From: Anodontia alba
Taxonomy: Eukaryota > Mollusca > Bivalvia > Lucinida > Lucinidae
NCBI GenBank assembly: GCA_964016985.1
Contig: OZ024823.1
Coordinates: 69,047,925 to 69,111,924 of the forward strand
DNA: 64,000 bases
Direction: 5' to 3'
Shown: positions 35,020-41,334 of the stretch, in pieces
Position numbering within the stretch: position 1 is the first letter of the stretch
Layout: each line of letters starts with the position of its first letter
The notes under the pieces: model-generated
What the model was told of the DNA's origin: nothing
The model's database searches: none
Seen by the model: the letters and a program-made list of their open reading frames with translations, nothing else
Position numbers and translations under genes: made by a program

Positions 35020-35367
35020 AGCAGCAGGGGGGGTGAATGCACCAATTAATGGCGCCAGGGGGTATACCCATACCGGGAAGCGGGTCGAAAGCGCCCCCCT
35101 ACTGCTCTGCACTAGGTGCGTCGGGCTTCCGCGTAGACTGCATGTACGACTTCCGTGGCTGCTTCCTGCGGCCCTGGTGATGGCCCCCTCCATCCTCGCC
35201 GGCCTGGGGCGCAGGGAGGATGAATGCACCAATTAATATAGCCAGTTGGTATACCCACGCCAGAAAGCGGGTCGAATGCGCCCCCCTGCTGCTCTGCGTC
35301 GGGCTTACGCTTACGACTTCCTTGGGCGTGCCTGCGGCCCCCACCCTCGCCGGCCTTGGGCGCATCT
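35020..35367 (+). repeat. left terminal inverted repeat
   Basis: About 348 bp pairing with 40,986-41,334. It is made of two related sub-units (about 35,036-35,220 and 35,220-35,367), each starting 'gaatgcaccaattaat' and containing 'gggtatacccay', 'agcgggtcgaa', 'ctgctctgc' and 'tcgccggcct'. Confidence 0.9.
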
Positions 35368-35409
35368 ATTTAAAGAAGTGGCAACTGCCGGTATATCGTT
35401 ACAAGCAAC

Positions 35410-35676
35410 ATGTCAAAGGGTCATGACACATGCAAATGGCTGACCTTGAGCTCAACGGAGCTCTGCGGCAAAAGCTGTCTTGCGGGCTTCTGTAGAGTTC
35501 ATCTGATGAGACTCCGCAAGGGCTCACTCACCCAACTCTGCCGAGGCTGCGGTGTAGGGGCCTATAACAAGCAGGGGCTCTGTCGTCGGTGCGGGTACCA
35601 TACTGCGTGGTGCCGTTCGGATAGGGCGATGCGAAAGGAGTTCGTGGGTCTGGCCGCTATTGAAATTCCCTTTTAG
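35410..35676 (+). CDS. small Cys-rich putative zinc-binding protein
   Basis: An 88-residue open frame, intact, just inside the left terminal repeat. Cysteines and histidines fall in pairs typical of zinc binding: LCGKSCLAGFCRVH, then LCRGCGVGAYNKQGLCRRCG, giving CxxC-x10-CxxC in the second half. There is no membrane segment or signal peptide. I do not recognise a named family. A DNA- or nucleic-acid-binding role is inference from the Cys pairs and the basic composition. It is the first of three plus-strand frames, and a set of direct repeats separates it from the polymerase gene. Confidence 0.6.
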   Translation: MSKGHDTCKWLTLSSTELCGKSCLAGFCRVHLMRLRKGSLTQLCRGCGVGAYNKQGLCRRCGYHTAWCRSDRAMRKEFVGLAAIEIPF

Positions 35677-35840
35677 AGAAAGTCACCGCGGGGTATATCC
35701 AACCATCTGGGCCAATAGAAGGCTCCATCGTGAATCCCTTTTAGAGAAAGTCACTACGGGGGATATCCAACCATCTGGGCCAATCGAAGACCTTTTCGAG
35801 AGCCCCTTTTAGAGAAAGTCAACGCAGGGTATATCCATCC
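35669..35840 (+). repeat. three direct repeats upstream of polymerase gene
   Basis: Copies of 'ccttttagagaaagtca' followed by 'gggtatatccaaccatctgg' start at about 35,669, 35,737 and 35,806, a period of ~68 bp. The third copy stops 10-15 bp before the polymerase ATG. The position suggests promoter, operator or origin repeats. Confidence 0.75.
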
Positions 35841-36141
35841 GGCGTCATGGCTACGATAGACAGCCTCGTCGACGAAATACTCGCAGTGCACGAAACAAGA
35901 GGACCCGCTGGATGTTGGCGACGTCGAGATCGTTGAAAGCATTCATGCCAGAGCTGGCCGGCTGGCGCTGGACTCTCCGATGACCGACGCCAGGGCTGCA
36001 CGACTTCTGGCGGCCCTCCCGGGGGACGTGGAGTTCCTCCTGCGAATCAAGTTTCTCCGGGAGAAGGCTGAGGATGAATGGGTCCTTGAAGACAAATTTG
36101 ATCCAGTCCGGGCTGACTGAAAGAAGGGCCAGGGGGCCGTC

Positions 36142-36715
36142 GTGGTGGCTCGGAACACCCGCCCTGGGGTATTGACTGGAATCGACAGTGTGTTCTATCA
36201 GAATGCCTATCCCGCCACCGCGGTTGTCTATGGCCTCTACCTGTTGAGAGACCCAGATCCAGCCAACCTCGCCCCGTTGAAAGACAGCGACATCAACTGT
36301 GTGGCCCGGAGAGTTGTGGAGCACTTCGAGGGCGCTTTGAGAGGCCAAGGACTCACGCCCGCGCGGTGGCAAAAGATCTAGGAGTGGGAGGAGAGGGTCC
36401 GCGAAACCGGTGCCTCGGTTGACGATGTGAAGAGCCTCAATCGAGCAATCGTCCTCCGGGACATTGCTGGTGAGGACATCTACAACAGTGGCAAGGACCA
36501 GAGAGGCGGCAACGGAGTCAGAGGCATAGTAGAACTCATCTGCCACAACGGCCATGCCTGGCCTAAAGACCTCCACTTCCCCCAGAGTAGAGAGGTCCAC
36601 ATCTATGAGGGCAACGTCTGGCACGCCATCCGGGAAGTGACCCGCGGGGGGCCAATTGCTGTCTGGCTCCTGGGCGGCCAAGACCGACTGCTCTCCATCG
36701 ACCAGTCCAGGACCG
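36142..36715 (+). other. N-terminal region of the fusion, function unknown
   Basis: Contains SVFYQNAYPATAVVYGLYLL, DIYNSGKDQRGGNGVRGIVE, LICHNGHAWPKDLHF and REVHIYEGNVWHAI. These are compositionally coding and hydrophilic. I do not see the ExoI/II/III motifs of a proofreading exonuclease. The TAG at 36,379 and a frameshift near 36,700 interrupt it. Confidence 0.55.
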
Positions 36716-36719
36716 CAAC

Positions 36720-39795: not shown

Positions 39796-39819
39796 AGACC
39801 GTCGGGCCATACTTAACAT

Positions 39820-39885
39820 CCCAGGCTCTCTGCTTCACATCCCAGGCCCACCGCTTCACATCCCAGGCCCTCCTACATAGCGTCT
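39820..39885 (+). repeat. three ~21-bp direct repeats
   Basis: 'catcccaggc' followed by 'ccgcttca'-like sequence is repeated three times between the fusion gene and the HTH gene. This is a candidate regulatory array. Confidence 0.6.
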
Positions 39886-39993
39886 GCATAGCAAAGCTAA
39901 ACACCTTCCCGGGTCCTTTCCAGGATTTCTCAGGCCCCTCAAGATGCTTGCCAGATTCCCATCCAGACATAAGGATGACGTGGGCATGCAGCC

Positions 39994-40614
39994 ATGATTC
40001 CCAAGCGAGAGTTAATCCAGGAACAGATTGAGGAAATCCAGGCCTTTCGGGGGTGTCTGTCGCTGGACGAGGTAAAGAAGCGCTTTGGCATTGGGTCCTC
40101 GAGGCTCTACAGGATATGGCGCGACGACACTGCCGACCGCTTTACACAGAAAGCCCTGCCCCCCGCACAGACCGCCGACCACATTACACAGAAAGCCCTG
40201 CCCCCCGCCGTCCTACCTCCACCGGCACATCGCGGCGTCTTGCCCAACGGAGAAACCCCAACCATCGAAGACTTCTACAAACGGCTGGAGGGCCTTCAGG
40301 CCCGGGCGGAGCAATCGACGAGACTACTGATGGAAGTGATGGCCCAGTTGGTGCACAACAATGAGCTGGAGGAGGAGCGCGAAGAGGAGTGCGAAGAGCT
40401 GGAGGAGGAACACGAAGAGGAAACCCGGATGGAAATCCAGAAAGTCGGACAAACGGTGGAAAAGTGGACCTACCTTTCCATCGCCGCAATACCCGTCTGG
40501 AAAATAGTTGGAGCAATCTGGAAGCAACGCGCGCCAGCCGTACAGGAACAAACTGCCGTACAGGAACAAACTGCCGCGCGGAGGTCCAAGAGGGACCCCT
40601 TCTACATGGAGTAG
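39994..40614 (+). CDS. helix-turn-helix / coiled-coil protein
   Basis: A 206-residue intact frame. Residues about 20-42 (LSLDEVKKRFGIGSSRLYRI) look like a helix-turn-helix of the resolvase/transposase type. Two copies of TQKALPPA follow, then a Pro-rich linker. A long acidic coiled coil (about 100-150, Glu-rich) leads to a short hydrophobic segment (LSIAAIPVWKIVGAIW) and a basic C terminus with duplicated AVQEQTA. There is no catalytic residue pattern for a recombinase. Likely roles, by inference, are DNA binding at the terminal repeats, regulation, or terminal-protein/membrane attachment. It is intact while the polymerase gene is ruined. The start at 39,994 is the first ATG; no upstream in-frame alternative is convincing. 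Confidence 0.65.
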   Translation: MIPKRELIQEQIEEIQAFRGCLSLDEVKKRFGIGSSRLYRIWRDDTADRFTQKALPPAQTADHITQKALPPAVLPPPAHRGVLPNGETPTIEDFYKRLEGLQARAEQSTRLLMEVMAQLVHNNELEEEREEECEELEEEHEEETRMEIQKVGQTVEKWTYLSIAAIPVWKIVGAIWKQRAPAVQEQTAVQEQTAARRSKRDPFYME

Positions 40615-40658
40615 CCCGTCCCTTAGACATAGGCGGATTCTGCAACGTCCACCCAGAC

Positions 40659-40985
40659 ATGGAAATAGTTCGCAGAAGAGGTTGCCCGCCGTGCTTCCCA
40701 TTTGAGCTGTTCTGGGAACAGCAAAAGGCATACGACAGCGGGCCCAAGAAACATGTCTGGGAGTCGCTTGAGGACCTAGAGCGCGCGGCAGCTCGAGAGA
40801 GCAGTGCAACCATATTGGGGCATATAGGCGCAGAAACAGCCAAAAAATGGTTGGGGATGGAACATGGGGAACTACGCCGTGGGGTATCGCGGGGGAGTGT
40901 TGTTTTGCCTCCACGGCGGAGGAGTGGTGGTCTAGATGGCTTTGCGAACTGTCGCAAGGGCGGGCCTTCTTCTCCGATGTGCAAG
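40659..40985 (+). CDS. possible third small gene, unrecognised
   Basis: From ATG 40,659 the frame reads RRGCPPCFPFELFWEQQKAY, HVWESLEDLERAAARE and ILGHIGAETAKKWLGM, compositionally protein-like. Near 40,880 a second frame (TAEEWWSRWLCELSQGRAFF) looks better, so one frameshift is likely. It runs into the right terminal repeat. No family is recognised, and it may be noise of GC-rich sequence. Confidence 0.35.
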
Positions 40986-41334
40986 AGATGCACCCCAAGG
41001 CCGGCGAGGGTGGGGGCTGCAGGCACGCCCGAGGAAGTCGTACGCGGAAGCCCGACGCAGAGCAGCAGGGGGGGCACATTCGACCCGCTCTCCGGCGTGG
41101 GTATACCCCCTGGCTATATTAATTGGTGCATTCATCCTCCCTGCGCCCCAGGCCAGCGAGGGTGGAGGGGGCCGTCCCCAGGGCCGCAGGAAGCAGCCAT
41201 GGAAGTCGTACATGCAGTCTACGCGGAAGCACGACGCACCCAGTGCAGAGCAGCAGGGGTGCGCTTTCGACCCGCTTCCCGGTATGGGTATACCCCCCGG
41301 CGCCATTAATTGGTGCATTCACCCCCCTGCTGCT
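40986..41334 (-). repeat. right terminal inverted repeat
   Basis: Inverse of 35,020-35,367 with roughly 90-95% identity by eye, including the same two sub-units. It ends 'cctgctgct', followed by gtaca. Confidence 0.9.

Follow-up and report, generated by a model that had tools for sequence, protein, structure and literature searches.

A putative transpoviron-like DNA element inserted in the genome of the lucinid clam Anodontia alba

A GC-rich unit bounded by inverted repeats

A stretch of 64,000 nucleotides from the lucinid clam Anodontia alba (contig OZ024823.1, positions 69,047,925 to 69,111,924; hereafter the window, whose own numbering is used throughout) contains a discrete unit of 6315 bp at 35020-41334, in which a long broken gene joins a family B DNA polymerase (PolB) to a helicase and a nuclease. 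The GC content of this element is 59.3% versus 38.6% in the remaining window, where no same-size stretch (sampled every 50 bases) exceeds 41.9%, and its observed/expected CpG ratio is 0.78 versus 0.47. The GC content shifts sharply at both junctions. At the ends lie terminal inverted repeats (TIRs), the left (35020-35370, plus strand) aligning with the right (40983-41334, minus strand) at 329 identities over 351/352 nt, and both element ends begin with the letters AGCAGCAG. Comparison of the flanks identified a target duplication, GTACA, at 35015-35019 and again at 41335-41339, to which no strand is assigned; two random 5-mers from the GTAC-rich flanks match by chance in 0.46% of 200,000 draws. 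A GC-rich block of 6.3 kb, long inverted termini and a gtaca duplication had all been read from the letters in an initial annotation of this DNA, and each is borne out here. The ends of the element are known from this one copy, and a search within the window did not find an empty insertion site.

Within each TIR are two related units with a spacing of 187 nt; in the left TIR these are sub-repeats at 35024-35110 and 35211-35297 that are 85% alike. The 20-mer gaatgcaccaattaatggcg, with up to three mismatches allowed, occurs four times (twice exactly) versus 0.01 expected. On the plus strand, a 68-bp tandem repeat of 2.5 copies lies directly 5' of the polymerase gene (35667-35837), and a 21-bp tandem repeat of three copies lies between the polymerase gene and a gene with a putative helix-turn-helix (HTH) described below (39812-39873). 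The host flanks at 34380-34591 and 41525-41739, about 7.1 kb apart, have about 210 bp in common at 96% identity, which places the element in or beside a duplicated GTAC-rich repeat array.

A broken fusion gene with a protein-primed type polymerase

The long gene (35847-39470, plus strand) comprises, in order, an N-terminal part, an OTU-like protease, a PolB palm, a superfamily 1B (SF1B) helicase and an endonuclease VII/HNH domain. When natural homologues were aligned to it by tblastn, four in-frame stops (36118, 36379, 37008 and 37740) and several frame changes were found, the alignment running in frame 1 over 35899-36705, frame 3 over 36705-38072, frame 2 over 38513-38971 and frame 3 over 38967-39413. 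The likely start, MATIDSLVDEIL, falls in an open reading frame (ORF; 35745-35936) whose frame differs from that of the following part, and the Walker A motif (GGGGSGK) lies inside an ORF (37384-37980) off the frame that aligns around it. This copy of the gene is dead at present, unless some of the breaks are sequencing errors. An in-frame insertion of 88 codons within the helicase (38073-38337, plus strand) is also found in homologue P0092 (89% over 88 amino acids); only its start is present in P0003, and it is missing in 20 homologues that span the site.

Residue conservation was counted over 173 homologues, each site being scored only where at least five identities to the reference lay nearby; this scoring favours conserved copies, and near-copies and broken copies are included. 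The OTU-like core (36283-36561, plus strand) has a Cys box, DSDINC (36283-36300), and a His box, HNGHAW (36544-36561), whose Cys and His are kept in 17 of 17 and 26 of 30 scorable homologues, respectively; OTU fold matches are weak. The palm, of protein-primed type (36705-37739, plus strand), contains motif A, SIDMKACYP (36954-36980), a motif-B-like stretch (37311-37334) and motif C, VATDS (37596-37610), in which ATD replaces DTD. The Asp of motif A is found in 75 of 79 scorable homologues and the last Asp of motif C in 112 of 116, while the first position of motif C is Ala in 108 of 117 and Asp in one. The motif-B-like stretch reads C-S-[IV]-I-G-K-F versus N-S-L-Y-G-K-F in phi29, and at the Asn and Tyr positions of phi29 motif B, paired by eye on IGKF/YGKF, the homologues have C (158/167) and I (163/168).

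The helicase, of the Dda/RecD type (37743-39176, plus strand), runs across several frames. The stretches WEE, GDQGQ, HSSQG and AVSR are present in the element, and the Walker A Lys is found in all 39 scorable homologues. Pfam matched pieces from the window to helicase AAA_30 below threshold (E 5e-4); among the homologues, P0148 matched a Dda-like helicase in PHROGs (E 3.2e-16) and P0125 matched AAA_30 (E 6.4e-13). The palm is followed by the helicase in P0125, P0148, P0158 and P0147. The endonuclease VII/HNH domain (39165-39437, plus strand) matched phrog_1035 at E 7.6e-14 and Pfam HNH at E 0.0045, under the cut-off. The polymerase motifs A and C, helicase stretches and HNH domain of the fusion proposed in the initial annotation are all present, but the gene that joins them is not intact.

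In a structure comparison, P0130 aligned with the polymerase part of phi29 only, and P0131 gave one phi29 alignment beginning at phi29 residue 55 (root-mean-square deviation 7.0), so that an exonuclease remnant is conceivable. No terminal-protein fold was named in five fold-match lists, hhalign against phi29 and PRD1 gave nothing significant, and neither the palm piece nor the helicase piece found a sequence match in PDB. P0148 matched a GntR regulator (E 0.029) and Pif1 (E 0.033) in PDB by sequence, and the best BFVD match was H6WBE3 (999 amino acids); neither H6WBE3 nor A0A4Y1MEH3 could be named. A single PDB match of the homologue profile (E 0.18) was at chance level and was rejected.

Small genes, and the genes that were not recognised

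Three further ORFs lie on the plus strand. The first, at 35410-35676, is an open frame of 88 amino acids with 9 Cys and 3 His that is putatively zinc-binding and has no family match. The second, at 39994-40614, is an open frame of 206 amino acids with a putative HTH and coiled coil, one segment of which is mildly hydrophobic (a Kyte-Doolittle mean of 1.27 across 19 residues). Its HTH was seen by eye only, as matches in Pfam and NCBIfam are weak and below cut-offs and PHROGs gave none; the protein retrieved 26 database proteins at E<=1, the best at 74% over the full length, three of them from a metagenome-assembled genome (MAG) of Thiodiazotropha. Both small proteins of the initial annotation thus have their reading frames, but the HTH assignment is without family support. 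The third ORF, with a conserved part (MEIxRRRG...FPFELFWE) at 40659-40853, remains open to 41309, inside the right TIR, and a similar peptide follows the HTH-like part in four of the six homologues examined (P0176, P0189, P0192 and P0194).

Among the 50 stop-to-stop ORFs of at least 80 amino acids that overlap the element, Pfam found no capsid, packaging ATPase or RVE integrase at E<=0.1 and recognised no transposase or other integrase, although shorter ORFs and very diverged capsids could escape such a search. This agrees with the earlier observation that the integrase and capsid genes of Polintons and adintoviruses are not visible here. Polintons/Mavericks and adintoviruses have inverted ends and a target duplication, and the element shares both with them along with a protein-primed PolB; unlike theirs, however, its polymerase is fused to a helicase, and no RVE integrase, capsid or ATPase was recognised in it.

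The element could instead be what remains of a larger polinton-like virus (PLV) whose capsid module was lost from this copy by internal deletion. The fusion gene is damaged here, and capsid-bearing PLVs, in the excerpts of the literature drawn on below, carry the same kind of replication gene. Nevertheless, both termini are kept and match at 329 of 351 positions, the recognised genes succeed one another on one strand over 6.3 kb with a size and gene kinds like those of transpovirons, and the HTH-like gene and the small ORF adjoin in four of the six other copies examined. We therefore consider a PLV remnant unlikely.

Relatives in animals and Glomeromycotina

A protein-database search with the palm piece retrieved 332 proteins at E<=1, the best 120 of which reach E 8e-57 or better, and a profile built from 15 relatives retrieved 346, the best 120 of which reach E 6e-94 or better. 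The best 120 of the 346 include fungal proteins from Diversispora epigaea (4), Gigaspora margarita (5), Racocetra persica (3), Cetraspora pellucida (1) and Rhizophagus irregularis (1), as well as animal proteins from Elysia marginata and the coral Desmophyllum pertusum; Elysia crispata is among the best 120 of the 332. Also among the matches listed are one EukProt protein and several proteins from MAGs of Candidatus Thiodiazotropha, symbionts of lucinid clams; the element proteins in these MAGs probably come from DNA of the host animal that was binned together with that of the symbiont. The profile search bears out the resemblance to Rhizophagus proteins that the initial annotation had put forward and extends it to other Glomeromycotina. 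An Asfarviridae-like polymerase has been reported in Rhizophagus (PMC5294986, seen in excerpt).

The relatives lie on many contigs, some megabases long (6,980,071 bases for that of P0011), and many look broken. A pattern scan of 84,980 prokaryote genomes gave 525 pattern matches, and scans of IMG/VR viral contigs gave 4, 7, 115, 21 and 9; no relative was confirmed among them, although these scans relied on few patterns and distant relatives could escape. Candidates from tblastn searches with P0057 were rejected, the five among 50,697 phage records being Dda/RecD-like helicases and the one among 72,556 plasmids a MobF relaxase. An assembly chimera or contamination would fit the abrupt change of GC at both junctions. 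However, GTACA stands at both of those junctions, the genes are broken, the relatives are spread over many contigs of up to megabase length, and the pattern scans confirmed none in prokaryote genomes or viral contigs, all of which makes an artefact of this kind highly improbable.

For a tree, 55 of the 173 homologues were left out for too little palm and 8 as near-copies, so that 110 homologues and the window made 111 rows; 13 of the 14 fungal proteins were included (P0160 was too short), and P0120 (Elysia crispata) and P0117 were also dropped. In the unrooted quick tree, the 13 fungal rows split from the other labelled rows with a support of 99 (Shimodaira-Hasegawa-like approximate likelihood ratio test, SH-aLRT), three unlabelled rows falling inside the split, and the rows nearest to the window are P0001 and P0002. 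Across the palm, the window is 45-66% identical to the 14 fungal proteins, the top value coming from a partial match. Identity at this level between animal and fungal sequences suggests that transfer across kingdoms, rather than descent, lies behind their likeness, the tree itself being undated.

Comparison with pPolB-S1H proteins and transpovirons

The published accounts in this section are cited from excerpts of their text. Tlr1-like pPolB-S1H proteins are described as having variable N-terminal domains followed by a vOTU, a palm and an SF1 helicase; their exonuclease is lost and motif C is without its first Asp, motifs A and B are conserved, and a C-terminal GIY-YIG or HNH is found in different PLVs (PMC11071308). 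The element's fusion resembles those of Tlr1 and TvV-S1 in its palm of protein-primed type with the helicase C-terminal in the same protein, the loss of the exonuclease, a motif C that lacks its first Asp, and the C-terminal HNH. A counterpart of their vOTU before the palm is suggested here by weak fold matches. In contrast, those proteins are PLV-encoded, with Tlr1 also having an RVE integrase, and the motif B conserved in them appears altered here (with the pairing made by eye). Set against the published description, the fusion agrees with the Tlr1-like pPolB-S1H type in the features compared, except motif B. The initial annotation had taken the polymerase-helicase-nuclease fusion to set the element apart; this does not hold, as the fusion is the published pPolB-S1H signature, HNH variants included (PMC11071308). 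The OmPLV of Oxyrrhis also has an SF1 helicase fused with a protein-primed PolB in an endogenous element, but there the helicase comes first, the exonuclease is kept, the element is about 25 kb long and a capsid gene is present (PMC12721341).

In these accounts transpovirons are described only in association with mimiviruses (PMC3671162, PMC11071308) and as derived from PLVs via loss of the structural module (PMC11071308). Their TIRs measure 380-520 nt, a central tandem repeat lies 3' of the helicase, and the core genes encode a helicase, a zinc-finger protein and an unknown protein (PMC7031253); one transpoviron of 6365 bp has TIRs of 77 nt and six ORFs, including a helicase, a zinc finger, a putative transposase and a transmembrane protein (PMC8877843). 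The element is like them in size (about 6.3-7 kb, here 6315 bp), in its TIRs and tandem repeats, in that no capsid gene was recognised, and apparently in its kinds of gene, which in transpovirons are those for a pPolB-S1H helicase, a zinc-finger protein and, in some, transposase or regulator proteins. It is unlike them in being inserted in an animal-type chromosome, whereas transpovirons travel with giant viruses of amoebae, and in its C-terminal endonuclease VII/HNH domain and altered motif B. We thus call the element transpoviron-like and do not file it as a transpoviron, because the two were compared through published descriptions and not by direct sequence comparison. What is unusual about it is its host, animals and Glomeromycotina, together with a short form in which no capsid gene is recognised; the titles and abstract openings listed among open-licence papers mention no such element in either group.

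Proposed nature of the element

Taken together, the locus probably represents a small linear-type DNA element in inserted and decayed form, which has no capsid gene and is built like a transpoviron. The initial annotation had suggested a linear plasmid with terminal repeats or a virus relative, able to integrate, and this likeness is upheld. The altered motif B is the chief ground on which to doubt that the polymerase would be active, and the tandem repeats are differently placed: the central repeat of transpovirons is 180-600 nt long and 3' of the helicase, whereas here 171 nt lie 5' of the gene and 62 nt lie 3' of it.

In intact relatives, the N-terminal part of the fusion protein would be, or would recruit, the terminal protein from which synthesis is primed at either end. 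Adenoviruses, with their CATCAT ends, initiate by jumping back, and the terminal AGC-AGC-AG reiteration of the element may likewise allow a jump back after initiation. The OTU-like protease may release the primer part from the polymerase, the palm and helicase would replicate the linear DNA by strand displacement, and the endonuclease VII domain may cleave branched DNA arising from the inverted ends. The repeated units of the termini, and those 5' of the polymerase gene, are presumably bound by the Cys-rich and HTH-like proteins. Having no capsid, such an element must either spread within cells or, like transpovirons, make use of a helper virus; candidates for its integration are the nuclease that it encodes, break repair by the host, or an integrase acting in trans.

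A free linear stage may not exist at all, and the same genes could belong to a purely chromosomal self-synthesising transposon. This is a special case of the preferred reading and does not exclude it. The GTACA target duplication would suit such a transposon, as would homologues on long contigs (such as that of P0011), many of them broken, as expected of a resident repeat family. Against it speak the protein-primed type of the polymerase and the Pfam scan of the 50 ORFs, which recognised neither a transposase nor an integrase, and we regard the version without a free stage as possible but doubtful.

For the small linear-type element that we prefer, a broader proposal can be made, which we hold only tentatively and at a little short of even chances: that it represents a capsid-less pPolB-S1H lineage in the nuclear genomes of animals (mollusc, coral) and arbuscular mycorrhizal fungi, which passes from one kingdom to another and inserts itself with no recognisable DDE transposase or RVE/tyrosine integrase, its own endonuclease VII domain possibly serving instead. 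Transpoviron-type elements would thus extend beyond giant viruses.

Other features of the window

A near-perfect giant inverted repeat occupies 13334-20014, with arms at 13506-16636 and 16717-19844 that are 99% complementary around an 80-nt spacer. Each arm has a reverse-transcriptase-like ORF, Penelope-like by eye, the one on the minus strand with a GIY-YIG-like tail; the repeat may be a foldback duplication or an artefact of the assembly. By eye, two more ORFs at 23811-25625 resemble a Penelope-type reverse transcriptase, an ORF of 299 amino acids at 4205-5104 (minus strand) a mariner-type transposase, and one of 389 amino acids at 56894-58063 (minus strand) a retroelement aspartic-protease region.

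Implications

If the proposal is true, a resident animal and fungal family of similar build would give transpoviron-type elements a cellular host range, and its members would either depend on a helper virus present in molluscs, corals and soil fungi or live without any helper. Given how similar the window's palm is to those of the 14 fungal proteins, transfer across kingdoms can be tested directly, and the family would offer a natural series for how linear plasmids become transposons.

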